DNA from: a bacterium A37T11
GTDB taxonomy: Bacteria > Bacteroidota > Bacteroidia > Sphingobacteriales > Sphingobacteriaceae
Assembly: GCA_900109895.1 (NCBI GenBank)
Contig: FOBR01000014.1
Coordinates: 62,001-126,000, forward strand
DNA: 64,000 nucleotides
Reading direction: 5' to 3'
Part shown: piece by piece, positions 11,832 to 42,178 of the stretch
How the letters are laid out: each line of letters opens with the position of its first letter
Numbering within the stretch: position 1 is the first letter of the stretch
Notes under the pieces: generated by a model
Databases searched by the model: none
Told to the model about the DNA's origin: nothing
What the model saw: only the letters and a program-made list of their open reading frames with translations
Position numbers and translations under genes: made by a program

Positions 11832-11863
11832 TTAGTGTGTAAATTTACAGCCATGATAGATCG

Positions 11864-11894
11864 GCGTTGATAAATTATGTATATTTATCAACGC
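11864..11894 (+). terminator. Perfect 11-bp inverted repeat between TonB receptor and ggt
   Basis: GCGTTGATAAA and its exact complement TTTATCAACGC enclose a 9-base loop. It lies 33 bp after the receptor stop and 16 bp before the first ggt start codon. It is not followed by a T run, so it could be a partial terminator, an mRNA-stability hairpin protecting the receptor message, or an operator. Confidence 0.5.
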
Positions 11895-11910
11895 TTATCG
11901 CTAATTTAAA

Positions 11911-13623: not shown

Positions 13624-13640
13624 TATGAACTGTTAAGACA

Positions 13641-16331: not shown

Positions 16332-16595
16332 ATGGATGCTTCAGATAAGAAAAATAATTCAAATCAACCTGTCACCATTCAATTGCATGCTACAGTTAAG
16401 ATACGGGACTTTTACGGAAGGGACATCCATACCTTTCATTTGGTACAACCTGAAAAAGCAACTGAAGGACCCCAATATTTATCCATCGATATGCCGCTTG
16501 CCAAAAAAATACTGGGCAAAAAAGAAGGAGATATTTTTGATTTCCGAGTGATCTCAGGGGCGACTAAAAAATTTATGATCATTGAGGTCACGTAA
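16332..16595 (+). CDS. Stand-alone GreA/GreB C-terminal domain protein
   Basis: 87 aa. The sequence follows the C-terminal FKBP-like domain of transcript cleavage factors (VKIRDFYGRDIHTFHLVQPEKA, LSIDMPLAKKILGKKEGDIFDF) but lacks the N-terminal coiled coil that reaches the polymerase active site. Such short forms may bind RNA polymerase without stimulating cleavage, as Rnk-type proteins do. Its start is 31 bp after the second RNA hairpin. The final 42 bp overlap the convergent aminotransferase gene, a larger overlap than at the other convergent pairs here. Confidence 0.75.
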   Translation: MDASDKKNNSNQPVTIQLHATVKIRDFYGRDIHTFHLVQPEKATEGPQYLSIDMPLAKKILGKKEGDIFDFRVISGATKKFMIIEVT

Positions 16596-17663: not shown

Positions 17664-17716
17664 GGAGTTAAATATCGTGAAAATTTATAAAAACCTTCCC
17701 AAAAGGTATTTTTCAT

Positions 17717-19174: not shown

Positions 19175-19185
19175 GGTTATCTGCT

Positions 19186-23450: not shown

Positions 23451-23582
23451 ATGAAATTAATAAATACTTTTAAAATTGTAAATTTAGTTAAAGCGATACC
23501 GAAACCCGTTTTTACTCCCACCAGTACCACAAAGGCATCCTATACGTTTATGCGCCAAAGCATCCGTATATGTTGTTGTTAA
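23451..23582 (+). CDS. Leader peptide ending in Cys-Cys-Cys
   Basis: A 43-codon ORF starting MKLINTFKIV ends S-I-R-I-C-C-C with codons TGT TGT TGT directly before TAA, 137 bp upstream of the SusC start. An internal ATG at 23550 would give the 10-residue form MRQSIRICCC. The operon it precedes carries thiol-oxidising enzymes. A ribosome pausing on the Cys codons when cysteine is scarce could change folding of the RNA that follows. The neighbouring SusC operon has a similar ORF ending R-M-C-C. This is the best candidate in the window for a new regulatory element; translation and attenuation are inferred. Confidence 0.55.
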   Translation: MKLINTFKIVNLVKAIPKPVFTPTSTTKASYTFMRQSIRICCC

Positions 23583-23719
23583 TACCCTAAACCCCAGCTG
23601 TTGATACTGCACCCTTTGAAAGCCTAAACCGGCAGATGAGGTTATAATACATCCCTTATTAATCATTAACACCCTAGTAGCTGCCAATCGCAGCATACTG
23701 TCTATTATTAAAAGATAAA
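23583..23719 (+). promoter_or_regulatory. Leader RNA between Cys-run ORF and SusC
   Basis: 137 bp with no gene. A short GC-rich hairpin GCTGC-CAATC-GCAGC lies at 23680-23694, 25 bp before the SusC start. TGTTAAT at the leader stop (23577-23583) can pair with ATTAACA (23665-23671), so at least two mutually exclusive folds are possible. No T run follows the hairpin, so any attenuation may act on translation or through Rho rather than by an intrinsic terminator. Confidence 0.35.
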
Positions 23720-26700
23720 ATGAGATACAGCTTAAAAACTATTGTATTATTATTAATGATCAGTCCTGTTTATTCTTTAGCACAAGAGACCACGCCACGT
23801 GTCAACTCGAACCTACATGGAAAGGTACTCGATTCATTAAGCCATGAGCCCCTGCCCGGCGCTACTGTCCAAATAGAAGGAGTCACTCACAGCGTAAAAA
23901 CGGACGCTGAAGGAAATTATAATTTCGTGACAGGGCAAAAGCTACCTTATACACTCATTATTAGTTATGTGGGATATAAAACAAAAAAAGTAATTGCAAA
24001 GGTGAGTCCATTGAATATGTTATTAACTGCTGATGCAAATCAACTGGAAGATGTGGTTGTTGTAGGATATGGTACGCAAACCAAAAAAGATCTGGTAGGT
24101 TCTGTTTCCAAAATAGAAGCTGATGAAATAAATCGTATACCAGTCGCCAGTTTCGATGCACAGATACAAGGCAAATCAACAGGAATACAGGTAAACAATA
24201 ACTCTGGGGTACCAGGTGATGGTATTAACGTAAGAGTGAGGGGTACAACATCGATATTAGCAGACAATAATCCATTATATATAGTTGATGGTGTATTTAT
24301 TAATAACTCCAGCCTGCAAACCGTGCATACAGGAGGACGTACAACTTCGCCAATAGCCGATATAAACCCAACTGATATTATTAGCATGGAAGTACTTAAA
24401 GATGCAAGCGCAACCTCTATTTATGGGGCCAGAGGTGCAAATGGAGTAGTTATCATTACTACTAAAAGGGGAAATTATAACAGTGCACCAAAAATAAACT
24501 TAAATGTCTCTGCAGGGCAAGGGAAATTGTCTAAATACCATTTTTGGGAATTGAGCGATGGTCCAACAAATGCGGAAGCAGTAAATCAAAATTATATTAA
24601 TACCAGACTCGACAAGGGAATAGCGTATGATGTAGCTTATGCATCTAGGCCGTTCCGCCCCAAAATTGAGGGTGGCAGGGGCAATCCTGCTGAACAAGAA
24701 ACCTATGATCGCGTAGGAAGGGTTTTTCGAAATGCTAAGCTTAACGACTATGATCTATCATTACAAGGAGGATCAGAAAGTACTAAATATTTTATTTCAG
24801 GAGCGTATACTTCACAGGAATCTATATTAAAGGTAGCGGATTTTGAACGCGAAAGCTTAAAATTGAATTTAGACCAAAAAATCAACAATCATATTAATAT
24901 TGGCGTCAGCAATACATTTAGCAGAACGGGACGCAGTCAGGTTGGGGCAGGAAACGGATCTCAGGGAAATATTTTATCAAGCGCTGCACTGGTGCAAGGA
25001 ACTTATAATCCTATATATAATCCAGACGGCACACCTTCGTTATCAGGAAACAGGGATAACGTTGATGTAATGATAGAAGACACAGATATAAAAGCAGTAA
25101 GCACAAGATATATCGCAAATTTATTTGCTGAAATTGAAATACTTAAAGATCTTAAATTTAAAACGAGCTGGAGTCTGGACTACAATTTATATGACGAGAA
25201 AGGGTATTGGTCTGACCGCATGTTGCAAGGCCAAAATGGCGGAGATGCCATATCATCAATTTCCCAAGCAACGACCTGGATCAATGAGCAAACTTTATTT
25301 TACCGAAAAAAAATAAAAGGACATACATTTGGTATATTGTTTGGAAATACCTTACAAGGTAATACCCGCAAAAATACTACGGCTGAGGGCTCCGGATTTC
25401 CAAATAATTCCTACCGTTCCATATCCGATGCATCTATTAAAAGTAATTCTGAGTCTTGGACAGGGTCCAATTTGGCTTCCTTCTTTTCACGTATAGATTA
25501 TAATTTTCAAAGCCGTTATTTCATAGAAGCCAGTATCAGAGCTGACGGCTCTTCAAGGTTTGGATCTAAAAACAAATGGGGTTATTTCCCATCCATAGGC
25601 GGATCATGGCGACTAAAAGAAGAAAGCATTCTTAAAGATGTTTCGGCCATTAATGAATTAAAATTAAGGGCCAGCTATGGATTAACAGGCAATCAAAATG
25701 GAATTGTTGATTATGCCTCCAGTGGATTATGGACTGGTGGTGCCCCGTATGCCAATTCGGCTGGCGGTGGTTATTCCGCTGGTACGGCACCTTATCAGCT
25801 CGGGAATCCTTACCTCCAATGGGAAAAAACAAGTCAGGTAAATGTTGGTTTGGATATTGGATTATTTAACAAAATAACAATAGATGCTAATATCTACAAA
25901 AAGTACACCACTGATGCCCTGCTTAGCGCTCCTTTACCATCATCATCAGGTCATAGCAGTTATGTTGCCAACGCAGGAGAATTAAGTAATAAGGGTTTTG
26001 AATTCGGAATAGACGCCACAATTGTTAAAAGCAATTTGTTTAGCTGGAATACCAATTTCAATATCTCCAGAAATATCAACAAAGTTGAAAAATTAATTGT
26101 ACCCATTACTTATTATTCCAGGGACTGGATTCGGCTGGAAGAAGGCTATCCCGTAAATTCATTTTGGGTATATAATCAGTTATATGTGGATCCCCAAACC
26201 GGTAATGCTGTATATGAAGATGTAAATTCAGACGGTAAGATCACAGCAGATGACCGGAAAATTATTGGAACTGCCTTACCTGACTATTTCGGCGGATTTA
26301 CAAACAAATTATCCTATAAAGGAGTTGACCTATCCTTTTTGTTTACCTATCAAATAGGAAATAAAATGCTGAACTTAAACCGATTTCTTAGTATGCATGG
26401 AGGAACACGGGCTGACAGATCGTTATATAAAGAAGATGAAAATTACTGGAAAAAACCTGGAGATATAACCGATATACCACGATTTACGTCGCAAGGAAAC
26501 AATTGGACATTAGAGACAGTAAACAGATTTATTGAAGATGCGTCATTCTTGAGGTTAAAAAACTTAACTGTGGGATACGGTCTCTCAAAAGACTTAGCAA
26601 AAAAATTTAAAGTGCAGGATTTGCGGATATATATTACCGGAACCAATTTATGGCTTTACTCAAAATATAAAGGTCCTGATCCAGAATCCAACACAGATGC

Positions 26701-26782
26701 TGAGCAAATGGTACAAGGTATTGACTTCGGTACCCCTCCCCAACCAAAAACATTTCAATTGGGCATTAATGTAACCCTATAA
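23720..26782 (+). CDS. SusC/RagA-type TonB-linked outer-membrane transporter
   Basis: 1020 aa. Signal peptide (to about PVYSLAQ, residue 22), carboxypeptidase-like domain (about 33-105), plug with DVVVVGYGTQTKKDLVGSVS, the SusC block ATSIYGARGANGVVIITTKRG near residues 230-252, then a barrel ending FQLGINVTL. It works with the SusD lipoprotein encoded 11 bp downstream to import a substrate with TonB energy. It heads a run of ten same-strand genes with very short gaps, ending in the rhodanese. The enzymes in that run act on sulfur compounds, so an organosulfur ligand is more likely than a glycan; no glycoside hydrolase is present. Confidence 0.95.
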   Translation: MRYSLKTIVLLLMISPVYSLAQETTPRVNSNLHGKVLDSLSHEPLPGATVQIEGVTHSVKTDAEGNYNFVTGQKLPYTLIISYVGYKTKKVIAKVSPLNMLLTADANQLEDVVVVGYGTQTKKDLVGSVSKIEADEINRIPVASFDAQIQGKSTGIQVNNNSGVPGDGINVRVRGTTSILADNNPLYIVDGVFINNSSLQTVHTGGRTTSPIADINPTDIISMEVLKDASATSIYGARGANGVVIITTKRGNYNSAPKINLNVSAGQGKLSKYHFWELSDGPTNAEAVNQNYINTRLDKGIAYDVAYASRPFRPKIEGGRGNPAEQETYDRVGRVFRNAKLNDYDLSLQGGSESTKYFISGAYTSQESILKVADFERESLKLNLDQKINNHINIGVSNTFSRTGRSQVGAGNGSQGNILSSAALVQGTYNPIYNPDGTPSLSGNRDNVDVMIEDTDIKAVSTRYIANLFAEIEILKDLKFKTSWSLDYNLYDEKGYWSDRMLQGQNGGDAISSISQATTWINEQTLFYRKKIKGHTFGILFGNTLQGNTRKNTTAEGSGFPNNSYRSISDASIKSNSESWTGSNLASFFSRIDYNFQSRYFIEASIRADGSSRFGSKNKWGYFPSIGGSWRLKEESILKDVSAINELKLRASYGLTGNQNGIVDYASSGLWTGGAPYANSAGGGYSAGTAPYQLGNPYLQWEKTSQVNVGLDIGLFNKITIDANIYKKYTTDALLSAPLPSSSGHSSYVANAGELSNKGFEFGIDATIVKSNLFSWNTNFNISRNINKVEKLIVPITYYSRDWIRLEEGYPVNSFWVYNQLYVDPQTGNAVYEDVNSDGKITADDRKIIGTALPDYFGGFTNKLSYKGVDLSFLFTYQIGNKMLNLNRFLSMHGGTRADRSLYKEDENYWKKPGDITDIPRFTSQGNNWTLETVNRFIEDASFLRLKNLTVGYGLSKDLAKKFKVQDLRIYITGTNLWLYSKYKGPDPESNTDAEQMVQGIDFGTPPQPKTFQLGINVTL

Positions 26783-26793
26783 TAATTTGAACA

Positions 26794-28164
26794 ATGAAAA
26801 GACAAGAAATAAATAGATTGCAAGCTATTTTACTAATTGTATTCTTAATAATGAATTCATGCAGTAAATTTTTGGAAGTTGAACCTAAGAATTATGTTTC
26901 TGATGAAATCACAATTACAGATGCCGCATCCGCACAGACATCGGTGCGAGGTATATATGATGCGTTGGCTTCCAGTGGATACTATGGCCGGTCTTTCCAG
27001 TCTATAGGTTATTTATCCGGAGATAATTTACAGTTTACTGGTACTGTGGTTTATAATCAGCAATTTATTATACACAACGTACAGTCTGATAACGGAACCA
27101 TATCAAGCGTATGGACTGCAATTTACAAAGCGATAGACAGGGCCAATCATGCTATCGAAAAAATTCCAGCCATCACTGATCCGAAATTAACCAGCACATT
27201 AAAAGATCAGCTCATTGGGGAAGCTTACTTTATCAGAGCATTGGCCTATTTTGATCTGGCTAGAGTATATGGTGGAGTGCAATTATTAACTAAACCAACT
27301 TCGTCACTTGAAAATATAACCGAAACAAAGAGAAGTTCTTTAGAAGAAACTTACAATCAGGTTAAATCAGATCTGGAAAACGCGGAAAATCTTTTACCCA
27401 ACACGTTGAACCGTGTTCGGGCAACCAAGAAGACGGCTTGGGCGCTATTCGCCAGATACTACCTTTATACAAAGGAATGGGATAAAGCGAGTAGTTACGC
27501 TACCCAGCTTATCGAAGAGACTACCAATTATCCACTAATTGCCCCATATAACTCGTGGTTTGCGAACAATATTGTAGCTTCTCCAGAGTCCATATTTGAA
27601 CTCAGTTATGACCCTGCATTCATAACAGGTAATTCAGCGCACAGAAATTCATGGCAGCCCACTGAAAATGGGGGAATTAAGGATTGGATACCGAATGAAG
27701 ATTTCCTGCAATTGATTAATAACCCACTAATCGGCGGTAATCGCAATACCCTTGTAGCTAAAACAGCGTCAACTTGGTATGGAAATTTGTACTATAGATC
27801 AAACGGTACCGACCCTGCATATGTATTACGGATTGCGGAACAATACCTGATCCGAGCAGAAGCATTTGCAGAACAAGGAAACTTAGAAGCAGCATATGAA
27901 GATCTTAATGCGATAAGAAATCGAGCGGGACTAGAAGCAATAGGCTACAAGGCCTCCAGTACAACAAAAGAAACCACCTTACTCGCTATAGAAAATGAAA
28001 GGAGGCTTGAATTCGCATTTGAACCTCACAGGTGGTTTGACCTTGTCAGGACAGGAAGAGCAGCAACTGTTTTGGGGATTACCGATACAAAAAAATACCT
28101 AATGCCGATTCCATTAGTTGAAATAAAAGTAGACAAATGGCTAGAACAAAATCCTGGTTACTAA
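26794..28164 (+). CDS. SusD/RagB-type outer-membrane lipoprotein
   Basis: 456 aa. Lipoprotein signal with lipobox IMNSC (C23), then SKFLEVEPKNYVSDE, the usual SusD opening, an N-terminal SusD-like domain (ARVYGGVQLLT) and a C-terminal RagB/SusD domain (AEQYLIRAEAFAEQGNLEAA, NERRLEFAFEPHRWFDLVRTG). It is the ligand-binding lid for the SusC transporter encoded just upstream. A membrane-protein gene starts 14 bp after its stop. Ligand unknown. Confidence 0.95.
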   Translation: MKRQEINRLQAILLIVFLIMNSCSKFLEVEPKNYVSDEITITDAASAQTSVRGIYDALASSGYYGRSFQSIGYLSGDNLQFTGTVVYNQQFIIHNVQSDNGTISSVWTAIYKAIDRANHAIEKIPAITDPKLTSTLKDQLIGEAYFIRALAYFDLARVYGGVQLLTKPTSSLENITETKRSSLEETYNQVKSDLENAENLLPNTLNRVRATKKTAWALFARYYLYTKEWDKASSYATQLIEETTNYPLIAPYNSWFANNIVASPESIFELSYDPAFITGNSAHRNSWQPTENGGIKDWIPNEDFLQLINNPLIGGNRNTLVAKTASTWYGNLYYRSNGTDPAYVLRIAEQYLIRAEAFAEQGNLEAAYEDLNAIRNRAGLEAIGYKASSTTKETTLLAIENERRLEFAFEPHRWFDLVRTGRAATVLGITDTKKYLMPIPLVEIKVDKWLEQNPGY

Positions 28165-28178
28165 TACACATTTTAAAA

Positions 28179-29522
28179 ATGAGCAACTCAGAAATTTCAC
28201 CTTCCACAGCATGGAAGCAATGGGAAATAGACATATTTAGATTTACGTTTCTATTTATCATTCTTCTATCTTTCCCCCTACTTGATTACAAGTTTTATAC
28301 CACCCTATTTTCTACAGAAATAAATGTCAGATCTATTTTGGATTTGACAAAATACCTACCGCAATACATTACTGAAATCGCGTTGCCAAAATGGGGTATT
28401 GGCAGTTTTGCTAATTGGGGGGTCAGTACAATAGTAGCTATTATTCTTGCCACAGTTTGGAGATTTTACGATAAAAACAAGAGAGAATATAATAAATTGT
28501 ACTATTGGTTGCGTGTTATTGTTCGCTATCGGTTGGCAATTGGATTGATTGCCTACGGATTCGTAAAATTCTTCCCTTTACAAGTACCCTATCCTTCTCT
28601 AAGCAATCTGCACACCAACTACGGTGACTTTTATGCATGGAAAATTTATTACCATACACTTGGTATCGTTCCCAAATATGAATCGTTTTTGGGATTTGTC
28701 GAAATTGCAGCTTCAGTACTACTCGTGTTCCGAAAAACATCTACGATTGGGGCAGGGATCATCATTGGATTTTTGGGAAACGTAGTTATTGTCAACTTTG
28801 CGTATGATATTGGGGATCATGTATACAGTTCATATTTACTTCTGCTAGCACTCCTTGTTTTTGCTTATGATGCGCCCAGACTGTACAGCTTATTAATAAA
28901 ACAACAAAAAACTTTGGCTAACAAATATATTCCGTTATTATCAAGCAAAACAAAACACGTTAGAACCATCTTAAAAGTTGCGTTTGCATTATTTGCATTA
29001 ACCTTTGGATTGCTTGCTTTTCGTAATTACACAGGAAACCCTTATTTGCTGCCCAAAAATCCAGGATTATCCGGGGCATATGGATTTTATGATGTAAAAC
29101 ATTTTGTTTTTAATGGTGACACTATCCCATATTCCCTTACCGATCCCAATAGGTGGCAAAACGTTGTATTTGAAAAGTGGTCAACACTTAGCCTTAAAAT
29201 TGCCCGGCCAATAAAAATAGACCCGACAAATGGGGATGAATGGCATGACAATGATTTAGATAGGAATTATGAACTTGCAGGCACAGGAGGAAGGCACTAT
29301 TTTTCTTATTCTGCAGACACTGTAAACCACACGTTACATTTGAAGAACAAAAATAAATATTACAAAGCAGAGAAACTAGAACTTTCCTATTCTTTTCCAA
29401 ATGACAGCACTATTATCCTATCAGGATATACTGAAAAAAAAGATACTATATATGCGTTATTGGAAAGAATTAATAAAAGGTATATGCTGTTTGAAGGTCG
29501 AAGAAAGCCGGTGAAGTTGTAA
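28179..29522 (+). CDS. DoxX-like membrane protein with C-terminal beta domain, paralogue 1
   Basis: 447 aa from the ATG of MSNSEISP; the longer frame would start inside the SusD gene. Several hydrophobic segments in the first 300 residues form a DoxX-like region: VRYRLAIGLIAYGFVKFFP, then GIVPKYESFLGFVEIA and FRKTSTIGA, then YDIGDHVYS. A last membrane span is followed by about 140 residues of beta-rich sequence with IPYSLTDPNRWQ, GGRHYFSY and ILSGYTEKKDTIYALL, probably outside the cytoplasm. DoxX relatives include thiosulfate:quinone oxidoreductase subunits. It is the most divergent of four consecutive paralogues. Function unknown. Confidence 0.75.
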   Translation: MSNSEISPSTAWKQWEIDIFRFTFLFIILLSFPLLDYKFYTTLFSTEINVRSILDLTKYLPQYITEIALPKWGIGSFANWGVSTIVAIILATVWRFYDKNKREYNKLYYWLRVIVRYRLAIGLIAYGFVKFFPLQVPYPSLSNLHTNYGDFYAWKIYYHTLGIVPKYESFLGFVEIAASVLLVFRKTSTIGAGIIIGFLGNVVIVNFAYDIGDHVYSSYLLLLALLVFAYDAPRLYSLLIKQQKTLANKYIPLLSSKTKHVRTILKVAFALFALTFGLLAFRNYTGNPYLLPKNPGLSGAYGFYDVKHFVFNGDTIPYSLTDPNRWQNVVFEKWSTLSLKIARPIKIDPTNGDEWHDNDLDRNYELAGTGGRHYFSYSADTVNHTLHLKNKNKYYKAEKLELSYSFPNDSTIILSGYTEKKDTIYALLERINKRYMLFEGRRKPVKL

Positions 29523-29543
29523 GCATTAGAAAAAAATGTGAAT

Positions 29544-30911
29544 ATGGCACATACAAATAGTTTAATAAATTGGACAGAACAGCAAAAATTAGTGTTCCGA
29601 ATTGCCTTCGTAATGCTGATTTTTTTGTGCGTCCCAACCGATTTGGAATGGTATCAGCACCTAATCAACTATAACTGGAGTGCTCTTCATTGGAATTACT
29701 TATATAGCATTGCAGCTTCTGGTCGCCCCCTTGAAGTAGTTACAATACCTGGAGAAAGCGGCAGATGGGGATTAGCTAGTTATACGAATACATTTGTTAT
29801 TTTCTTTATTGCCATACTTTTAGGACTCATATGGACACGTTTGGACAAAAAGTCGCGTCATTACAACAAATTAAATTACTGGATTCGGGTAGTTGCGCGC
29901 TATCAGTTAGGATTTGCAATTATAGCCTGGGGCTACCGAAAAATAGTGCCGTTACAAATGATGTGGCCACCTACCAACTTACTGAATACACCTTTGCTAT
30001 ACATACAAGAACAAAAGATATATTGGCAGTCTATTGGAATTGTACCGTCTTACGAAATATTTCTTGGTTTTGCCGAATTTTTTTCAGGTTTCTTTTTATT
30101 ATTTCGTAAAACAACCGGATTAGGTGCGTTATTGACAGTAGTAGTTTTAGCTAATATTGTAATTATCAACCATACATATGATGGTGGGGTTCATATCCCT
30201 AGTTTCACATTTGTATTGGTTGCATTAATATTATTGTGGAGAGACTTACCAAATGTTTACGCACTATTAATAAAAGAAAAAACCATTCAACCTCACCATT
30301 ATTATTATCCCTTTTCAAAAACCTGGGAAAAATATAGCAGGTACCTGTTAAAATTTACTGGCTTTGCGATATTTGTAGTTCTTGAATTTTTTTTGCATTT
30401 ATTTGGGGAACCAAAATATCGCGTACCCGACAGGCCCGGGCTTAAAAACAAGGCTGGCTACTACCATGTAACTGAATTCCGATTGAACAATAGAACGATT
30501 GCTTATTCTCCATTCGACAGTTTGAGGTGGCAAGATGCGATATTGGAAGACTGGGCTACTTTGGCATTTAAGGTCAACCGCAAAGAAATAATAGACCAGT
30601 CAAATGGCCCTTCATTAAAACCAGGTGGTGGATTAGTAGATGATATTGACAGGGGCTGGGAATCAGCAGGGGTGCAGGGAAGGCATTTCTTTTACTATGT
30701 CGCCGATACAGTTAACCAAATTCTATATTTACAAAACAAAAACAAACTTTACCGCGATGAACGGCAAATATTGCATTATAGCTTTCCTTCAAAATCTAGA
30801 ATCCTATTTTCCGGAATAAATGAATATAAAGATTCCATTTATGTCGTATTAGATAGGATCGACATGAAATATCCGGTAATAAGTTCCCGCCATTCTGCTC
30901 AGGCTTTTTAA
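29544..30911 (+). CDS. DoxX-like membrane protein with C-terminal beta domain, paralogue 2
   Basis: 455 aa from ATG (a GTG two codons earlier is the alternative). Same build as its neighbours: a polytopic part with VARYQLGFAIIAWGYRKIVP, GIVPSYEIFLGFAEFFSG, FRKTTGLGA and YDGGVHIPS, a final span, then a soluble beta-rich domain with IAYSPFDSLRWQDAILEDW, QGRHFFYY and LFSGINEYKDSIYVVLDR. Conserved His in GGVH and RH pairs in the last domain are possible ligand or cofactor residues. It starts about 20 bp after paralogue 1. Close likeness to paralogue 3 suggests a recent tandem duplication. Confidence 0.75.
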   Translation: MAHTNSLINWTEQQKLVFRIAFVMLIFLCVPTDLEWYQHLINYNWSALHWNYLYSIAASGRPLEVVTIPGESGRWGLASYTNTFVIFFIAILLGLIWTRLDKKSRHYNKLNYWIRVVARYQLGFAIIAWGYRKIVPLQMMWPPTNLLNTPLLYIQEQKIYWQSIGIVPSYEIFLGFAEFFSGFFLLFRKTTGLGALLTVVVLANIVIINHTYDGGVHIPSFTFVLVALILLWRDLPNVYALLIKEKTIQPHHYYYPFSKTWEKYSRYLLKFTGFAIFVVLEFFLHLFGEPKYRVPDRPGLKNKAGYYHVTEFRLNNRTIAYSPFDSLRWQDAILEDWATLAFKVNRKEIIDQSNGPSLKPGGGLVDDIDRGWESAGVQGRHFFYYVADTVNQILYLQNKNKLYRDERQILHYSFPSKSRILFSGINEYKDSIYVVLDRIDMKYPVISSRHSAQAF

Positions 30912-30921
30912 TCTCAATCAG

Positions 30922-32310
30922 ATGCCAAACCATATATCTTTAACAAATATTATATCTGGAAGTTATGAAAATAGCTCATCAATATTAAAAATAATGGGTT
31001 TCCGCAGCATTTTCGTGTTTGTTGTTTTTCTGTGTATACCATTTGACCCTTTGTTCTATAGCGGACTATTTTCTATAGACTGGACTTCCTTAAGGTGGCC
31101 AACTTTGGCAGGAATAGCAAGCGGATTAGGTTCACCCAAATGGGTTAATTTGAATCCTGAGGATCAATGGGGATTATTAAGCTACATTAACCTATTAATT
31201 TCATACATAATATCATTTTTAATAGCTGTTATTTGGTCAATACTGGACAAAAAAAGAAGATCATACAGCACACTTTTCTATTGGATATTAGTGATAGCCA
31301 GATACAGGGCTGCATACGGCATTATTGCTTGGGGATATAAAAAACTCATCCCCTATCAAATGGAACTTCCTTCCATTTCTTATTTAAATACACCATTTGG
31401 TGATTTCAGAGCTCAAAAACTATATTGGCAAGGTGTTGGTATTGCTCAGCACTATGAAATTTTCCTAGGATTTGCAGAGGTATTTGCAGGTATTCTACTT
31501 TTATTCAGAAGAACTACTTCTTTTGGTGCAGCTCTATTATTCGCGATTCTAATGAATATAGCACTGGCAAATCATGCTTATGAAGGCGGGGTACACGTAC
31601 ACAGCTTTACCTTTGCCTTACTAGGATTGATTATTTTATGGCCACAATTGCCATCTATATATCAATTGCTGATACACGGACATGATGCCGAACCAAACAT
31701 CTATTATCCTTCTTTTCATAATAACTGGGTAAAATATATCAGGTACCTGTTTAAAGCCACTGGTGCCAGTGTGTTTGTCTTTTTTTTATTTTACTTGTTT
31801 ATAAAAGATGATCTAGGTTATCGCTTTCCTTACGAACAGCCTATACTCAAAAATGCTACAGGGAGATATGATGTTACTGAGTTTCGGGTCAATAATCAAA
31901 TATTACCTTATTCCCCATTTGATTCTGTCAGATGGCAGGATGCGATCTTTGAAAAATGGTGTACCCTAACGTTTAAAGTAAACCGTAAACAGCAGATGGA
32001 CCTGGACAATCAGGGAAATAGCCGGAAGAGCATTGAGATGCGGTTTGAATATGCAGGTGTTGGCGGAGGCAGGCATTATTTCGACTATCAAATAGATACC
32101 ATTAAACAACTATTGTATTTGCAGAATAAAAACAGGGCACATCGAGATCAGCAGCAAATACTACACTATGAAAGACCCAATAAGGACAGGATCATCTTAA
32201 GTGGTATTAATGAATACAAAGATTCCATTTATGTCGTATTGGATAGAAATAAACATGATTATCCATTATATCAAAATAGAAGGCCTACCAACAAAATTAT
32301 TAGAAAGTAA
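30922..32310 (+). CDS. DoxX-like membrane protein with C-terminal beta domain, paralogue 3
   Basis: 462 aa. Repeats the same architecture: IARYRAAYGIIAWGYKKLIP, GIAQHYEIFLGFAEVFAG, FRRTTSFGA, YEGGVHVHS in the membrane part; GRYDVTEFRVNNQ, LPYSPFDSVRWQDAIFEKW, GGRHYFDY and ILSGINEYKDSIYVVLDR in the C-terminal domain. The shared ending KDSIYVVLDR with paralogue 2 is exact. It lies 10 bp after paralogue 2, within the same transcript. No catalytic residues are known for this combined form; the DoxX relation only suggests quinone-linked redox or membrane-sensor work. Confidence 0.75.
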   Translation: MPNHISLTNIISGSYENSSSILKIMGFRSIFVFVVFLCIPFDPLFYSGLFSIDWTSLRWPTLAGIASGLGSPKWVNLNPEDQWGLLSYINLLISYIISFLIAVIWSILDKKRRSYSTLFYWILVIARYRAAYGIIAWGYKKLIPYQMELPSISYLNTPFGDFRAQKLYWQGVGIAQHYEIFLGFAEVFAGILLLFRRTTSFGAALLFAILMNIALANHAYEGGVHVHSFTFALLGLIILWPQLPSIYQLLIHGHDAEPNIYYPSFHNNWVKYIRYLFKATGASVFVFFLFYLFIKDDLGYRFPYEQPILKNATGRYDVTEFRVNNQILPYSPFDSVRWQDAIFEKWCTLTFKVNRKQQMDLDNQGNSRKSIEMRFEYAGVGGGRHYFDYQIDTIKQLLYLQNKNRAHRDQQQILHYERPNKDRIILSGINEYKDSIYVVLDRNKHDYPLYQNRRPTNKIIRK

Positions 32311-32324
32311 TTAAAAAAAATAAA

Positions 32325-33755
32325 ATGAACAAGTTAACTATAGAAAGTAACAGTTCCTGGTCCGGCAATCAGCTCTTTTGGTTTCGCTCGGCTTTTATAT
32401 TCTTTATTATTATGTCAGTACCTCTACAATGGTCTTGGTTTGAGCGTCTTTTTGCTATAGATATCTTTGATTTAACCTATAGGGATCTTTACGAGATATC
32501 AGGGTATAATCCACGTATATGGTCCGTACCAACTGAAAGCGGAAGGTGGGGATTAGCCAGTTTTACAGATTGGCTGATCATATTCATTATTGCACTTGCC
32601 GGGGCAGCGATATGGTCGTATTTTGTCAGAAATAAAAAGACAAAGGCCTATAATAACTTATATTATTGGATACAGGTAATTGTGCGATACCGGGTGGCGG
32701 CAGGACTCATCACTTTCGGGTATGTGAAATTATTTCCAGTACAAATGCCCGCTCCTTCTATTACTGTGCTTAATACAGAAATTATAAATATTCTTTCCCA
32801 AAAACTTTACTGGTCATCTGTGGGCATAGTTACCTGGTATGAAGTATTTCTGGGTTTTGCTGAGATCTTTGCCGGGGCATTGATGTTCTCTAGAAGATCA
32901 AGTAGTTTGGGGGCTTGCTTGACCATCGGGGTTTTATTTAACATTTTTTTAGCTAATATTTATTACGATGGTGGAGTACATGTTTACGCCTTATACTTCG
33001 TACCATTATCTTTATTTTTGCTCATCCAGGACTTTCCTAAAGTATGGCAGTTGCTGGCTAATGAAAAAGACACCCTACTTAACAGGTACAGACCCGCATT
33101 AAACCGCACCGCATATTATACCACCAGGGGTCTTAAATATTTGTTCATAGGCATATACCTGCCTTTTCAGTTCTACATCATGTACTCCAATCATTATATA
33201 GAAGTCAAAGTTAGAAAACAACCCGTTCAGGCAGGGTTAAAAAATAGTGCAGGGTATTATGAGGTTTCTGAATTTAAACTCAATGGTAAAACTATCCCTT
33301 ACTCCCCTTACGACACAGTGAGATGGCAAACCGCAACTTTTGAGAAATGGACCACGTTTACGTATAGGGTTAACAAGCCTTTTTTTCCGGATTTATCAAA
33401 CGGCGGGCCGGCCAAAAAGGACATAGACCGGAATTTTGAATATTCTGGTGTGGCAGGGGGACAACGATTTCTCTATTACGAAGCAGACACCACAAATCAT
33501 GCCCTGACTTTTTATGACAAAAATCTTCCACCAAACGTGATCAAAGGCAAGATACGGTCTTCAAAAAGGGAACGAGACCTGGCAGAGAAAAGTCGCATCA
33601 CCTTTACATTAACTTATAGCAGACCCACTATATCAAGCCTCGTCTTATCGGGATTAAACGAACAGAAGGACTCACTCTATATAGTTTTGAACAAAATTGA
33701 CAAAAGATATCCGCTGATAGATGGAAGGCGGCAATTAGCAACAAACAGCAATTAG
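32325..33755 (+). CDS. DoxX-like membrane protein with C-terminal beta domain, paralogue 4
   Basis: 476 aa, the longest paralogue. Membrane part: IVRYRVAAGLITFGYVKLFP, GIVTWYEVFLGFAEIFAG, SRRSSSLGA, YDGGVHVYA. C-terminal part: GYYEVSEFKLNGKTIPYSPY, VRWQTATFEKW, GGQRFLYY, with an insert of about 20 charged residues (KIRSSKRERDLAEKSR), then LVLSGLNEQKDSLYIVLNK. The RH pair found in the other three is QR here, so that histidine is not strictly kept. It starts 14 bp after paralogue 3 and ends 13 bp before the DUF1684 gene. Confidence 0.75.
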   Translation: MNKLTIESNSSWSGNQLFWFRSAFIFFIIMSVPLQWSWFERLFAIDIFDLTYRDLYEISGYNPRIWSVPTESGRWGLASFTDWLIIFIIALAGAAIWSYFVRNKKTKAYNNLYYWIQVIVRYRVAAGLITFGYVKLFPVQMPAPSITVLNTEIINILSQKLYWSSVGIVTWYEVFLGFAEIFAGALMFSRRSSSLGACLTIGVLFNIFLANIYYDGGVHVYALYFVPLSLFLLIQDFPKVWQLLANEKDTLLNRYRPALNRTAYYTTRGLKYLFIGIYLPFQFYIMYSNHYIEVKVRKQPVQAGLKNSAGYYEVSEFKLNGKTIPYSPYDTVRWQTATFEKWTTFTYRVNKPFFPDLSNGGPAKKDIDRNFEYSGVAGGQRFLYYEADTTNHALTFYDKNLPPNVIKGKIRSSKRERDLAEKSRITFTLTYSRPTISSLVLSGLNEQKDSLYIVLNKIDKRYPLIDGRRQLATNSN

Positions 33756-33768
33756 CAAAGGAAAAAAC

Positions 33769-34677
33769 ATGAAAAAGAAAAACAGATTTATAATTTATCT
33801 ATTCATGGGCTTGATGACCATGTCTGTGTATCAGATCCACGGCCAGATAAAAAGTAATAATGAAATTGAGTTGAATCAGTGGATTATACAAAGGAATAAA
33901 TTCCTTATTTCGGATGACAGTCCTTTAAATTTAATTGGAATTCTCACCGTTAAAGCTGGAAATCAGACCTTCGGAAGCGCGAAAGATAACGGTGTCATAT
34001 TCCCATCGGATGAGGTGCCTGCAAAATTTGGATCCGTTACTTTAGAAGATGGTCAAATCAACGTACACATAAACGACGGTTATCCCGTACGCATAAAAGG
34101 TGAGCTAATCACTGAAGACAAAATTTTTAATCCACGGTTAGAAAAGCCCGTATTTGAATATCGTTCATTCAGATGGTACTTTACGGAAAACAATGGAGAA
34201 TATGCTGTACGAATTCTGGACACAGCAAGTACATACCGACAACATTTTAAAGGTGTAAAAAGATTTCCTGTAGATCTTCACTGGCAGTTTAAAGGGCATT
34301 TTACGCCTTATGAAGAAAACGTAACTATTCCTATTACAACTGTATTGGGCATTACCAATCAACGTCCTGCAGCTGGTTTGATTAGCTTTGAGTATGAAGG
34401 AAATACTTATCAATTGGAAGCATTGAATCAAGCAGGAAAACTTTTTGTTACCTTTTCAGACCTTACTGGCAATAACGAATCCTATGCCTTTCGGTTTCTG
34501 ACCATCGAGCGGCCTGTAGGTACAAACGATATATGGATAGATTTTAATAGGGCCATCAACCCAAATTGTGCATTTTCACCTTTCGCCCCCTGTCCATTAC
34601 CCCCAGCCAAAAACAATCTACCATTAGCCGTTAAAGCCGGAGAATTAAAGTATGTAACAAATAAAGAAAACAAATAA
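33769..34677 (+). CDS. DUF1684-family exported protein
   Basis: 302 aa with a signal peptide (to about HGQ, residue 26). The family is recognised from the whole run: LNQWIIQRNKFL and the SPLNLIGILTVKAGNQTFGS region near the start, RSFRWYF in the middle, and at the end WIDFNRAINPNCAFSPFAPC followed by PLPPAKNNLPLAVKAGE. DUF1684 proteins are conserved but have no known activity; the invariant NPxCAF...CPLPP tail holds two cysteines that could form a disulfide. It sits between the DoxX paralogues and the MFS carrier and overlaps the carrier start by one base (TAATG), so the two are coupled. Confidence 0.85.
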   Translation: MKKKNRFIIYLFMGLMTMSVYQIHGQIKSNNEIELNQWIIQRNKFLISDDSPLNLIGILTVKAGNQTFGSAKDNGVIFPSDEVPAKFGSVTLEDGQINVHINDGYPVRIKGELITEDKIFNPRLEKPVFEYRSFRWYFTENNGEYAVRILDTASTYRQHFKGVKRFPVDLHWQFKGHFTPYEENVTIPITTVLGITNQRPAAGLISFEYEGNTYQLEALNQAGKLFVTFSDLTGNNESYAFRFLTIERPVGTNDIWIDFNRAINPNCAFSPFAPCPLPPAKNNLPLAVKAGELKYVTNKENK

Positions 34678-35933
34678 TGGCTTTAGCGATTGAACAAAAT
34701 AACAAAACCACATTATTTAGCGTCCTCAGTGTCCCTGTCATCGTAGCCGCATTAGGATATTTTGTAGATGTCTACGACATGCTTTTATTTGGTATTGTTC
34801 GTATTCCAAGTCTTAAAGCTCTTGGTTTGTCTGATATTGAAATATCAAAAGAAGGGGCAAGTATTTTAAACTGGCAAATGACAGGGCTGCTATTTGGTGG
34901 TTTTTTATGGGGAACATTGGGCGACAAGAAAGGTAGGCTCTCCGTCCTTTTCGGATCTATCATCACTTATTCCATTGCCAATATCGCCTGCGGATTTGTT
35001 CATGAACCATATACCTATAAAATTTGGAGATTCATTGCAGGTTTGGGGTTAGCAGGAGAACTTGGGGCGGGTATCACGCTCGTTTCTGAAAGTCTGCCTA
35101 AGAAACTGCGTCCATTTGGCACTTCCCTGGTAGGTGGGATTGGCATGTTAGGCGCAGTAGCAGCCTATTTTACCGCAGAATTGTTTGAGTGGCGGGTAGC
35201 CTATTTTGTAGGCGGAGGTATGGGTATTGCATTGCTCATTTTAAGGCTGGGAGTAAGAGAATCGACTATTTTTCAACAATTAAAAAAGAATTCAAAAGTA
35301 CAAAAAGGAAACTTTTTATCCTTGGTAAATGACCGTGGAAGGTTAAAGCGCTATTTAAAATGCATCGGAATTGGTATTCCCTTTTGGTATATCATCAGTG
35401 TGCTAGCCACATTTAGCAATGAATTTGGAAAGGCATTTCATGTAGTCGAGCCTGTAGTACCTGGATTAGCTATTATGTGGGCCTATGTAGCTATATCTAT
35501 CAGCGACATTTTTTCAGGAATTTTGTCATACAAATTAAAATCAAGAAAGAAAGCCGTTCTTTATCTCATTCTCTTTGCGTTTGTCAACAGCTTTATTTTC
35601 CTTTTCCATGGCTCAAATTCAGCAAGCCAAATGTACTTCCTTATCTTCCTGATGGGCATCGGTATAGGTTACTGGGCATTATTTGTCACCATCGCTGCTG
35701 AACAATTTGGAACTAATTTGCGTTCCACTGCAGCCACTACAGTGCCCAATATGGTACGAGGTACAGTCGTGTTGATGACTACGGCATATATATCTTTAAA
35801 AGATTCCACCGGCGTCGTCAATGCAGGGATTATTTTAGGAGCAATTTGTTTTACATTAGGAATATATTCCATTCTTACCATTTCGGAGACACACGATAAG
35901 GATATGGATTTTCTGGAGGAAATTCCAACATAA
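34677..35933 (+). CDS. MFS transporter, metabolite:H+ symporter type
   Basis: 418 aa with about 12 membrane spans. The first span has the D-x-Y-D motif (YFVDVYDMLLFG) typical of the organic-acid:H+ symporter group, the 2-3 loop has GTLGDKKGRLSVL, and RFIAGLGLAGELGAG follows, all MFS hallmarks. It should move a small organic anion across the inner membrane. With SusCD in the outer membrane and a cytosolic dioxygenase encoded 16 bp downstream, it is the obvious inner-membrane step for the imported compound or one of its breakdown products. Substrate not determined. Confidence 0.88.
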   Translation: MALAIEQNNKTTLFSVLSVPVIVAALGYFVDVYDMLLFGIVRIPSLKALGLSDIEISKEGASILNWQMTGLLFGGFLWGTLGDKKGRLSVLFGSIITYSIANIACGFVHEPYTYKIWRFIAGLGLAGELGAGITLVSESLPKKLRPFGTSLVGGIGMLGAVAAYFTAELFEWRVAYFVGGGMGIALLILRLGVRESTIFQQLKKNSKVQKGNFLSLVNDRGRLKRYLKCIGIGIPFWYIISVLATFSNEFGKAFHVVEPVVPGLAIMWAYVAISISDIFSGILSYKLKSRKKAVLYLILFAFVNSFIFLFHGSNSASQMYFLIFLMGIGIGYWALFVTIAAEQFGTNLRSTAATTVPNMVRGTVVLMTTAYISLKDSTGVVNAGIILGAICFTLGIYSILTISETHDKDMDFLEEIPT

Positions 35934-35949
35934 ATTTATTTAGAAATCG

Positions 35950-36558
35950 ATGAGCATTAAAAAAAACACTGAAAAACTTAGGAATTTTATTACCGCTTTC
36001 GCAAAGCTGCTGGAACTTACTTCGCAAGAGACGGAAATACTCAGTCAAGGCCGTATATTGCTCCTTGACCTACTAAAGACAGATGACTGGCTTGCCGATG
36101 ATTTTGCCAAGCCCCATCCTGAACATTATTCCCAATATTTACTTCATGCAGATTCTTTGGAGCGGTTTTCCGTCGTCAGTTTTGTTTGGGGTCCTGGACA
36201 ACAAACCCCTATCCATAATCACACCGTTTGGGGATTGGTAGGAGTACTTCGTGGTGCAGAATTAAGCCAATCCTACATCCGGAATGAGCTTGGATTGCTA
36301 CAACTATCGGGCAATGAAGTAAGGCTGGAAAATGGAGAAGTGGAATCCGTATCCCCCAATATCGGAGACATACACCGGGTAAAAAATGCATTTGCAAACC
36401 AAAGTTCTATCAGTATACACGTCTATGGAGGCAATATTGGTGCCGTAAAAAGATCAGTTTATAATGATGATGGTAGCGAAAAAGTATTTATATCTGGCTA
36501 TTCAAATCAATTTTTACCCAATATTTGGGACCGTTCTAACGAAATTTTGTCACTGTGA
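35950..36558 (+). CDS. Cupin thiol dioxygenase, 3-mercaptopropionate dioxygenase type
   Basis: 202 aa cytosolic cupin. The three Fe ligands are H89 and H91 in PIHNHTVWG and H142 in IHRV, and the S-x-H-x-Y triad of the family is S155-H157-Y159. Enzymes of this family add O2 to a thiol to give a sulfinate. Position 62 is Gln (YSQYLLH); as I recall the family, bacterial 3-mercaptopropionate dioxygenases have Gln here where cysteine dioxygenases have Arg, so a carboxylic thiol other than cysteine is the better guess. The residue next to the metal site is Gly, so no Cys-Tyr crosslink is expected. GTGA overlap couples it to the rhodanese gene. Confidence 0.85.
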   Translation: MSIKKNTEKLRNFITAFAKLLELTSQETEILSQGRILLLDLLKTDDWLADDFAKPHPEHYSQYLLHADSLERFSVVSFVWGPGQQTPIHNHTVWGLVGVLRGAELSQSYIRNELGLLQLSGNEVRLENGEVESVSPNIGDIHRVKNAFANQSSISIHVYGGNIGAVKRSVYNDDGSEKVFISGYSNQFLPNIWDRSNEILSL

Positions 36559-38246
36559 AAAGCAACAACCACATAATTCTTAGCATTATTTTTCTAATGA
36601 CAACTAATATTCAGACTACGTTTGCCACAATCCCTACTTATACTTCAGAACAGGTGAGGGAGGCGTTAAGAAATAAACAAGAGATCGCTTTGATTGATCC
36701 GCGGGAAGAAGATGTTTTTGCAAAAGGCCATCCGTTATTTGCAGCCAATTTTCCTATTTCAAGTATTGAAACCGATGCTTATACCCGCATACCCCGCTTG
36801 CAAACTTTATTAGTAATATATGACAACGGCGAGGGACTAGCAGAAAAAGCAGCCAAAATATTTGAACACATCGGTTACTCCCAAGTTCATTTATTATCAG
36901 GGGGACTTAAGGGATGGAAAAAATCAGGAGGTATTATTTTTGAAGATGTCAACTCGCCAAGTAAAGCTTTTGGCGAATTGGTTGAATCAAAAAGAGAAAC
37001 TCCGATGTTGTCCCCTAATGAAGTTAAGCAACTAATAGACAGTAAAAGTGACTATGTTATTCTGGATGCACGCAGGTTTGATGAATACCATACGATGAAT
37101 ATTCCAGGCAGTTACAGCGTTCCAGGAGCCGAATTAGTATTAATAGCAAGGGAACTTGCTCCCAACCCGCACACAAAGATCATTGTTAATTGTGCAGGCC
37201 GTACCCGAAGTATCATTGGGACACAGTCGTTAATAAATGCAGGCTTACCCAATCAAATTGCCGCCTTAAGAAACGGTACTATTGGCTGGACATTGGATGG
37301 TCAGACCCTGGAACATGGTGCAGACCGGCTTCCCCCAGAAGCAGAAGAAAAAAATAAAAATAAGGCTGCAACAGACAGTTGGAATGTTGCAGCAAAAGCA
37401 GGTGTTAAAAAAATTGATTTTCAAACATTAAAAACGTTTACTAAAGATCAAACACGAACTACATATCTGTTTGATGTCCGTACAGAAGAAGAATACAGGA
37501 AAGGACATCTTCCACATTTCCTACCCAGGCCAGGTGGACAATTGGTTCAGGAAACCGATCATTCTGCTCCAGTGAGAGGAGCAAGAATAGTCCTCGCGGA
37601 TGACTTAACTTATAATGTCCGGGCAAATATGACAGCCTCATGGCTTCAACAAATGGGTTGGGAAGCTTATGTATTAAGCGGTAAAAATCATTTTAACAGT
37701 CAAGAAAAAGGATTAGCTCCTCTCCATTTACCTTCGCTCCCAATAATTCCGTCTGCTAGTTATATAAAAGCAGATAAGCTTGCTAAGTGGTTAGGAGAAA
37801 ACAATACAGTAGTCATAGATTTTTCTAAAAACAGTGCATTCAGTAAAACCAGAATTCCCGGGGCGTGGTATATTCTCCGCTCACAGATTAAAGAATCTAT
37901 CGCCAATCTACCTAATAAAAAGCGATATGTCCTTACTTCTGAAGAAGGGTTAAGAGCTATTTTTGCCTATCCAGAAATTGTTACACTACTAAAAAATAAT
38001 GTGTACCTATTAGCAGGTGGAAATCAGGCATGGTCGATAGAAAATAGGCCATTAGAAGGTATTGAAGTGAAAGGAAACTATGCTTCTACACCCACTGACC
38101 GATATAAAAGACCTTATGAAGGTACCGACCATAACACAGAGGCAATGGAAAAATATTTGCAATGGGAATACGGTCTTGTTAAACAATTAGAAGCGGACAG
38201 CACCCACGGCTTTTGGGTTTTAGAAGCTACTAATCCTTCTCAATAG
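36555..38246 (+). CDS. Exported four-domain rhodanese with one active site
   Basis: 563 aa, GTG start overlapping the dioxygenase stop by 4 bp. Signal peptide to about residue 24 (TTFA). Four rhodanese-like domains follow, near 28-128, 150-255, 285-380 and 400-502. Only domain 2 keeps the sulfur-carrying cysteine, C213 in VNCAGRTRS; domain 1 has YDNGEG, domain 3 ADDLTY and domain 4 TSEEGL at that place. Rhodaneses move sulfane sulfur from donors such as thiosulfate to acceptors such as cyanide or thiols. A periplasmic form fits persulfide or thiosulfate handling by this operon. It is the last gene of the tightly packed run. Confidence 0.88.
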   Translation: MKSNNHIILSIIFLMTTNIQTTFATIPTYTSEQVREALRNKQEIALIDPREEDVFAKGHPLFAANFPISSIETDAYTRIPRLQTLLVIYDNGEGLAEKAAKIFEHIGYSQVHLLSGGLKGWKKSGGIIFEDVNSPSKAFGELVESKRETPMLSPNEVKQLIDSKSDYVILDARRFDEYHTMNIPGSYSVPGAELVLIARELAPNPHTKIIVNCAGRTRSIIGTQSLINAGLPNQIAALRNGTIGWTLDGQTLEHGADRLPPEAEEKNKNKAATDSWNVAAKAGVKKIDFQTLKTFTKDQTRTTYLFDVRTEEEYRKGHLPHFLPRPGGQLVQETDHSAPVRGARIVLADDLTYNVRANMTASWLQQMGWEAYVLSGKNHFNSQEKGLAPLHLPSLPIIPSASYIKADKLAKWLGENNTVVIDFSKNSAFSKTRIPGAWYILRSQIKESIANLPNKKRYVLTSEEGLRAIFAYPEIVTLLKNNVYLLAGGNQAWSIENRPLEGIEVKGNYASTPTDRYKRPYEGTDHNTEAMEKYLQWEYGLVKQLEADSTHGFWVLEATNPSQ

Positions 38247-38325
38247 ATATCCTATTTTCTAGGTTAATCATCTTTTAACCACAGTTTTTATTTACTTTAC
38301 ACTCGTAGGTAGAAATAAATAAAAA

Positions 38326-39255
38326 ATGAACGGAAAAATCATCATCGCCGGCGGCACAGGCAGTCTGGGAACACACCTCCTGGACCGCTTTAAAGCGACA
38401 GATAGACAACTAATCGTGTTGACGCGTTCAGCAAAAAAGTTGGATGGCAGGGATGACAGGGTGCGCTACGTTATATGGGATGGTGAGTCAATAGGCCCCT
38501 GGGCCAGAGAACTCGAAGGAGCTACCGCTATTATTAATCTATCCGGTAGAAATGTTAATTGTCGGTTCACAACCAAAAACAAGCGGGAGATTTTAGATTC
38601 AAGGGTGCGTTCTACGAAAGTGATTGGCCTTGCCATCCAACAGTGTAATACTCCTCCGCAAATCTGGATCAATGCCGGAGGTATTTCCCATTATCCGGAA
38701 ACATCCAACCCACTTAGTGAATATGACCAGACGGTAGTTAGCGGATTTCTAAGCGAAGTGTCGGAGCAATGGGAGGCTGCTTTCAATCAGGTAGACACGT
38801 CCAACACCCGTAAAGTACAATTTCGTATCGCTGCGGTGCTTGAATATGGGCAAGGCATGCTCAAACCACTCACTTGGTTAACCAGGCTGGGTTTGGGGGG
38901 AGCAGCAGGAAATGGCAAGCAATACATTTCCTGGATTCACTATCAAGACTTGGTTAGATTATTTGAATGGGCCATCCTAAACAATGATATTGCCGGAATC
39001 ATTAACGCGAGCAGTCCAAACCCTATTCAAAACAAGTATTTTATGCGTGCCCTGAGAGCTGCACTGCACGTTCCATTTGGCCTACCAAATTTTTCTTGGA
39101 CGACCAGGATAGGGGGCTTAATCATAGGTACTGAGGCTGACCTTATCTTACATGGAAACCGCATTATCTCCAAAGTTCTTGAAGAAAAACAATTCAGCTT
39201 TGATTTTTCAAGTGTAGATAAAGCCCTGAAAGACATATTTAACAAACACAATTAA
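38326..39255 (+). CDS. YfcH-type NAD(P)-dependent epimerase/dehydratase family protein
   Basis: 309 aa cytosolic extended SDR. Nucleotide-binding start GGTGSLGTHLLDRF (residues 8-21), INLSGRNVNCRFTTKNK, and a C-terminal DUF1731 domain (SSPNPIQNKYFMRALRAAL and ADLILHGNRIISKVLEE). The combination is the YfcH/TIGR01777 family, present in many bacteria without a firm activity. It begins 79 bp after the rhodanese, so it may have its own promoter, though none is clear. Link to sulfur metabolism is by position only. Confidence 0.9.
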   Translation: MNGKIIIAGGTGSLGTHLLDRFKATDRQLIVLTRSAKKLDGRDDRVRYVIWDGESIGPWARELEGATAIINLSGRNVNCRFTTKNKREILDSRVRSTKVIGLAIQQCNTPPQIWINAGGISHYPETSNPLSEYDQTVVSGFLSEVSEQWEAAFNQVDTSNTRKVQFRIAAVLEYGQGMLKPLTWLTRLGLGGAAGNGKQYISWIHYQDLVRLFEWAILNNDIAGIINASSPNPIQNKYFMRALRAALHVPFGLPNFSWTTRIGGLIIGTEADLILHGNRIISKVLEEKQFSFDFSSVDKALKDIFNKHN

Positions 39256-39357
39256 CTCATAGTTAAGTCCAAAATATTTTGCGTGTAAAAAAATAAAGAT
39301 TATCATTGCAGTCAAAGAAATACGATAAACATAATAGATTATATTCCAATTATTCAA

Positions 39358-40614: not shown

Positions 40615-40687
40615 CGGACAGGTTATTTTCCTGAGGCCGCTGCGGGAACAAACCGAATTTTTATAAAATCGTAATTCTTAAATCAAA

Positions 40688-42106: not shown

Positions 42107-42178
42107 CCATAATTTTACTAGACTTTGTATAAATCCATAATAATTGCTAATTTAGCTACGTAAACGACGAATAATTTT

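Follow-up and report, generated by a model that had tools for sequence, protein, structure and literature searches.

A poly-cysteine leader ORF heads a probable sulfur-acquisition SusCD locus in a member of the Sphingobacteriaceae

We analyzed a 64-kb stretch of DNA from the Sphingobacteriaceae bacterium A37T11 (hereafter, the window; contig FOBR01000014.1), in which a short cysteine-rich open reading frame (ORF) precedes genes for a SusC/SusD import pair, four paralogous membrane proteins, and a series of enzymes and carriers that probably form one sulfur-acquisition locus (Table 1). The ORF list of the window contains ten collinear plus-strand ORFs between positions 23720 and 38246, which are separated by gaps of 10 to 16 bp or overlap by 1 to 28 bp, confirming the close same-strand spacing described in an initial annotation of this DNA. 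That annotation let the feature start at 23451; this position is the ATG of a separate poly-cysteine (poly-Cys) ORF of 43 codons that it had missed, and SusC itself begins at 23720. It also ended the feature at 38246, which is too early according to the gene order of relatives. The four genes at 38.3 to 43.3 kb are probably parts of the same locus, to judge by related operons of other genomes, and the last of them (encoding a formylglycine-generating enzyme [FGE]-like protein) is its probable end. The family assignments made earlier for SusC, SusD, DUF1684, MFS, the thiol dioxygenase (CDO_I), and the rhodanese all hold in Pfam and NCBIfam scans. Likewise, a YeiH-type exporter is present near 39.4 kb, as noted previously, with a score of 180.8 bits against PF03601 (cut-off, 24.5) and of 88.9 bits against TIGR00698, below the cut-off of 232.6.

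Table 1. Features of the locus, with positions in the window
Feature	Position	Strand	Evidence or remark
Poly-Cys leader ORF	23451..23582	+	43 codons, MKLINTFKIVNLVKAIPKPVFTPTSTTKASYTFMRQSIRICCC, then stop; ATG at 23451
Hairpin directly before SusC	23670..23701	+	TAGTAGCTGCCAATCGCAGCATACTG, loop CCAATC
SusC/RagA TonB-linked outer-membrane transporter	23720..26782	+	TIGR04056, 783 bits, E 4e-235, above cut-off
SusD-family lipoprotein	26794..28164	+	PF14322, PF07980
DoxX-like membrane protein, C-terminal barrel, copy 1	28137..29522	+	Paralog alignment; no Pfam match of its own
DoxX-like membrane protein, C-terminal barrel, copy 2	29538..30911	+	Paralog alignment; listed with GTG start
DoxX-like membrane protein, copy 3	30922..32310	+	AlphaFold model; weak DoxX_2/DoxX/MauE matches
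DoxX-like membrane protein, copy 4	32325..33755	+	Paralog alignment
DUF1684 protein	33769..34677	+	PF07920, E 4e-37
MFS transporter	34677..35933	+	PF07690; best NCBIfam match TIGR00895, below cut-off
3-Mercaptopropionate dioxygenase (3MDO) ortholog, predicted	35950..36558	+	phmmer, active-site residues
Exported-looking rhodanese, four rhodanese stretches, PA2603/TST type	36555..38246	+	phmmer E 3e-177 to 1yt8
SDR, TIGR01777 family	38326..39255	+	Above cut-off; recurs in module, 5/44 operons
YeiH-family (PF03601) exporter	39358..40614	+	PF03601 above cut-off; 29/44 operons
CrtI/CrtO-like FAD oxidoreductase	40688..42106	+	NCBIfam/Pfam; 30/44 operons
FGE-like (sulfatase-modifying) protein	42179..43267	+	PF03781, E 1e-75

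A sulfur role of the locus is supported most strongly by the leader ORF. The window leader (MKLINTFKIVNLVKAIPKPVFTPTSTTKASYTFMRQSIRICCC) closes with the codons TGT TGT TGT immediately before its stop, which lies 137 nt from the SusC start, so that a short upstream ORF with consecutive Cys codons near the stop, as expected of an attenuator, is present. We scored as a leader any ATG-initiated ORF of 12 to 75 codons upstream of SusC with at least three Cys within four residues, and chance levels were obtained from first-order Markov shuffles of the same upstream regions. Poly-Cys leaders were found at 30 of the 41 module loci (window included; shuffles, 0.7%) and at 3 of 60 control SusC genes (30 from the genome of the window and 30 from three relatives), an enrichment with a Fisher p of 2.5e-13. 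Two of these three control genes, on contig C16, head SusCD operons containing sulfatases (PF00884). Homologs, in other genomes, of the SusC from one such operon carry the leader in 21 of 29 cases, and in most neighborhoods read for it the leader stands ahead of sulfatase and FGE genes, with the FGE homologs coming after the sulfatases. Outside the family, the module loci L254 and L257 carry the leader as well. Over 53 leaders, the median length was 31 aa, the last Cys lay 0 to 4 residues before the end, and Cys was encoded by TGT 171 times and by TGC 69 times; length and N-terminus vary, and the terminal Cys run alone is conserved. Judged by sequence, these features match the pattern expected of a putative amino-acid-sensing leader peptide. 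No described family matched the leader peptides in an NCBIfam search, and a genome-wide scan for the promoter-ATG-poly-Cys pattern was dropped because the pattern was too loose.

Two observations were made near these leaders. Contig C16 of genome G000 carries three SusCD operons in the vicinity of sulfatase genes (70 to 97 kb; L159 and L160); poly-Cys leaders precede two of these operons (MKNRFLLISPVLSFKMVSKSWMSYLCCC and MKIYMHFSLPHRMCCCC, each followed by a stop). One more poly-Cys ORF, MNWLLLQNHYHSLYGRCCCCNSTC, lies upstream of a second TonB-type receptor that neighbors the module locus L254.

Sequences flanking the leaders were also examined. Of 53 leaders, 46 have the Bacteroidota -7 box TAnnTTTG no more than 90 nt upstream of their ATG (shuffles, 8.7%), and in 43 of 53 cases strong hairpins (z < -2) lie between leader and SusC. 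In the window, the hairpin listed in Table 1 is the best local one (-11.6 kcal/mol, z of -2.8), and the whole region from 23583 to 23735 folds with a z of -2.2. Hairpins below -11 kcal/mol precede 33 of 41 module SusC genes and 18 of 60 control genes, i.e., they are also frequent in controls. More specific is a second element, with the loop GTAACGCCAATCAC or elsewhere TCAATTGGCGTTG, which was present upstream of SusC at 30 of 41 module loci and at 19 of 29 loci of the sulfatase type, but at 2 of 60 controls. A covariance model of the GTAACGCCAATCAC-type element, built from 31 sequences, many of them from the scored loci, gave 44 strong matches in sulfur loci and none above 18 bits in control SusC upstream regions, and two loci outside the training set (L092 and L262) scored 67 and 73 bits. 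RNAalifold applied to alignment A3 recovered four pairs and no more, because hairpin 1 shifts in sequence and register between subtypes. The TCAATTGGCGTTG loop motif (L094, L095, L098, L111, L113, L225, L230, and L245) approximates the reverse complement of ACGCCAATCAC, a motif of other loci. An Rfam scan of the window locus and its relatives matched no family to the leader regions; a group-II-D1D4-4 match within the rhodanese gene (38011 to 38139; 28.8 bits, cut-off 49) is probably due to chance.

The gene content of related loci likewise points to sulfur. A profile of the DoxX-like proteins matched 230 of 399 genomes of the family and, in a sample drawn from the whole phylum, a minority of 22 out of 395. 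Besides the window, 44 neighborhoods were read, to which the operon counts given here refer. SusD follows SusC in all 44 and DoxX-like genes occur in 43 (for the FAD oxidoreductase and YeiH, see Table 1); the conserved core is SusC-SusD-DoxX(2-3)-FAD oxidoreductase-YeiH. Further members are a SoxC sulfite dehydrogenase with a cytochrome c (13 operons), an S51 cyanophycinase-like peptidase (10), an MBL-rhodanese (4), TauE (2), and the 3MDO-rhodanese pair (2, the window not counted); at least one clear sulfur gene is found in 37 operons, and no sulfatase was matched among the genes of the 44. The initial annotation had held that glycoside hydrolases in orthologous loci would speak against a sulfur function; none was recognized in the 44 operons, of which the unlabelled genes were not all scanned. 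The genes downstream of the leader are thus predicted to handle reduced sulfur, and the sulfur-related role proposed in the initial annotation is well supported by the leader and by the sulfur genes of related operons.

The four proteins previously called DoxX-like are indeed paralogous membrane proteins (copies 2 to 4 are 37% identical to copy 1), but the DoxX label itself is weak and no curated cut-off was passed. Sub-cutoff matches to DoxX, DoxX_2, and MauE were obtained for one copy (copy 3), the best to DoxX PF07681 reaching 16.9 bits versus a cut-off of 23.6, and no Pfam match to DoxD or DoxA (thiosulfate:quinone oxidoreductase, DoxDA) appeared at E up to 1. An AlphaFold model of copy 3, built from 48 relatives (pLDDT 86.4), has a membrane part made of helices and, at the C-terminus, a beta barrel (residues 308 to 445) whose alignments to lipocalin-like folds gave Z values of about 7 to 8.6. 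No confident structural match was found for the membrane part; the first Foldseek match to the model, vitamin K gamma-carboxylase (E 0.009), was too weak for use, and PDB sequences searched with the DoxX-like profile (hmmsearch) gave no match. The weak DoxX/MauE matches and the gene context suggest that these proteins may have a quinone-linked thiol/disulfide function. Another DoxX gene (PF07681, above cut-off) lies outside the locus, at 53928 to 54368 on the minus strand.

The dioxygenase is a 3MDO ortholog with correspondingly predicted activity. In phmmer searches it matched Av3MDO (6xb9) at E 2.5e-77 and Pa3MDO (3uss/4tlf) at 4.7e-72, with values of 1e-70 to 1e-77 for the solved 3MDOs and close relatives (6xb9, 4qma, 3uss/4tlf, and 4wvz) and about 60% identity to 3MDO, whereas its best match to cysteine dioxygenases was far poorer (E 0.002). 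Alignment to Av3MDO shows that the iron ligands H90, H92, and H142 and the triad S155-H157-Y159, residues described in PMC8050391 and PMC10966181, are kept, and that an R aligns with Av3MDO R168, which binds the substrate carboxylate (PMC8050391). A dioxygenase of this type agrees with the thiol-carboxylate class of substrate suggested by the initial annotation.

The rhodanese directly downstream is orthologous to 1yt8, a protein of solved structure, and of PA2603 type, as in the 3mdo-tst pair of Pseudomonas protegens, which has been described as apparently forming one transcription unit (PMC12947264). Among proteobacteria, the two genes also adjoin in Azotobacter, Vreelandella, Hydrogenophaga, Dryocola, Enterobacter, and Thiothrix. 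The initial annotation regarded the entire gene set as undescribed, which cannot stand as worded: the pair itself is already known and is a rare add-on to the module, found in 3 of the 399 family genomes, and a DUF1684 gene was seen in neither of the other two 3MDO loci examined. In all three family loci, SusC-SusD and an MFS gene stand upstream of the pair. Adjacency and order are the same as in the orthologous Pseudomonas genes (PA2602-PA2603 type; PMC12947264), but the latter are described as a two-gene unit, whereas the window pair follows SusC, SusD, the four DoxX-like genes, DUF1684, and MFS.

Proteins of these loci are poor in sulfur amino acids. The Cys+Met content of SusC was 0.43% in module loci and 0.21% in sulfatase loci versus 1.21% in control SusC (p about 1e-10 and 1e-11, respectively), and SusD, DoxX-like, S51, and TlpA-like proteins are also low. 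In the window, SusC contains 0.78% Cys+Met, and the dioxygenase (202 aa) has no Cys and no internal Met. We treat composition as supporting evidence only, because low-Met SusC proteins are common in some relatives.

Two other operons of the window show similar depletion. A divergent operon on the minus strand (16554 to 22488), comprising SusC, SusD, and an exported HisC-like aminotransferase, is extremely depleted of Cys and Met (0.27% in SusC, 0.21% in SusD, and, apart from the start, no such residue in the 369 aa of the aminotransferase) and has an ORF, MKSHFSFLMPDSLVRMCC followed by a stop, upstream; it is probably a second sulfur-responsive operon. On the plus strand, positions 9030 to 14888 encode a TonB receptor (933 aa, 0.11% Cys+Met), a gamma-glutamyltransferase (TIGR00066), and a ResA/TlpA-like protein; this operon, at which no poly-Cys leader was found, looks like one for glutathione-sulfur acquisition.

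The locus at 23451 to 43267 is, in our view, likely to be a SusCD system for scavenging sulfur whose genes are switched on by leader-peptide attenuation when cysteine runs short; that it serves sulfur-responsive acquisition and carries a Cys-sensing leader we hold with slightly greater confidence. In the mechanism that we propose, scarce Cys-tRNA would cause ribosomes to stall on the Cys run of the leader, and the stalled ribosome would alter leader RNA folding or Rho access, thereby allowing expression of SusC and the following genes. SusC and SusD would import an organosulfur compound into the periplasm, most likely a 3-mercaptopropionate-related thiol- or disulfide-carboxylate; the DoxX-like proteins may carry out thiol/disulfide redox reactions with the quinone pool; the MFS protein would bring the acid inward; and 3MDO would form the sulfinate, from which enzymes encoded outside the locus would free sulfite. 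The rhodanese would transfer sulfane sulfur, and YeiH would expel surplus oxidized sulfur. It is rather doubtful that 3-mercaptopropionate itself is the physiological substrate; our guess is that the substrate of the three 3MDO loci is a thiol- or disulfide-carboxylate and that the wider module has another one. In Variovorax paradoxus, catabolism of 3,3'-thiodipropionate and 3-mercaptopropionate includes a 3MDO step with an FAD oxidoreductase upstream of it; the locus has the predicted 3MDO step, and possibly the FAD enzyme, in common with this route, but not its CoA-transferase and desulfinase genes.

Several observations weigh against this interpretation. The window leader has no exact TAnnTTTG match upstream, the covariance model did not detect the conserved RNA element of relatives in the window, no recognizable intrinsic terminator is present in its leader region, and the Cys run pairs with downstream loops no more than expected by chance (mean z of -0.46). 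Some relatives, among them the closest 3MDO locus (L011), have no poly-Cys leader, and the window locus contains no genes for sulfinate-CoA desulfination. In addition, the Cys+Met contrast is weaker within single relatives, many of whose SusC proteins are low in Met, and the loci share descent, so that leader counts are not fully independent; simple inheritance of the leaders is nevertheless disfavored by the separate set of sulfatase SusC genes and by the diverse N-termini.

Poly-Cys leader ORFs are known from actinobacteria (i.e., the cys operon of Mycobacterium and cbs of Bifidobacterium), where cysteine-responsive attenuation has been proposed or reported (PMC1262725). The window shares with them a short upstream ORF, a Cys run next to the stop, and a position ahead of sulfur genes. 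The actinobacterial leaders, reportedly also treated by Canestrari et al. in 2020, precede biosynthetic or assimilation genes, whereas those of Bacteroidota precede outer-membrane SusCD importers and, unlike the former, are mostly preceded by a -7 box and often followed by a conserved hairpin element.

The alternative that survives best, although we judge it improbable, is dissimilatory sulfur oxidation, in which the module would oxidize thiols, thiosulfate, or sulfite for electrons rather than for cysteine synthesis, the DoxX-like proteins delivering to quinone and SoxC acting with cytochrome c. Oxidation and disposal would suit the DoxX-like membrane domains and YeiH export, and a SoxC sulfite dehydrogenase above the TIGR04555 cut-off does occur with cytochrome c in 13 of 44 operons, but SoxC could merely detoxify exported sulfite; moreover, a Cys-sensing leader and low Cys+Met indicate sulfur shortage rather than surplus, and sulfatase operons carry the same leader. 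Clearly less probable still is a response to thiol or sulfite stress, with the Cys-rich peptide serving as a small metal- or electrophile-binding protein and not as an attenuator. DoxX, rhodanese, and TlpA-like genes are generally known from redox stress contexts and Cys runs could bind metals; however, a functional protein of this kind fits poorly with leaders conserved in the terminal Cys run alone, and neither SusCD importers nor sulfatases would be expected there. An ordinary glycan utilization locus with incidental sulfur genes is scarcely credible: the SusC-SusD pair at the operon head is shared with polysaccharide utilization loci and a GH43-like gene (assigned by eye) adjoins some loci, mostly divergently, but the related operons hold sulfur genes and no recognized glycoside hydrolase, and the window locus has sulfur enzymes and exporters instead of glycan-degrading enzymes, none of which appeared among its operon genes in Pfam/NCBIfam scans.

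Beyond the window, the sulfur-acquisition interpretation has a wider form that we advance with distinctly more reserve: a family-wide, perhaps phylum-wide, cysteine-starvation regulon of Bacteroidota may exist, in which poly-Cys leaders control SusCD importers dedicated to sulfur (organosulfur compounds and sulfate esters), a structured element of an undescribed kind lies between leader and SusC, and the DoxX/lipocalin proteins constitute a new periplasm-facing class of thiol/quinone redox proteins. Our literature search retrieved no report of a Bacteroidota cysteine leader or of a SusC-DoxX-sulfur locus, although such absence is not proof of novelty. If the interpretation is true, the leader would be, to judge from the searched literature, the first cysteine attenuator reported for Bacteroidota, and a widespread, uncharacterized DoxX/lipocalin membrane family would be tied to sulfur. 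SusCD loci are by default read as glycan systems; a leader signature that marks sulfur would reassign many of them and would make the sulfur nutrition of Bacteroidota testable from sequence alone.

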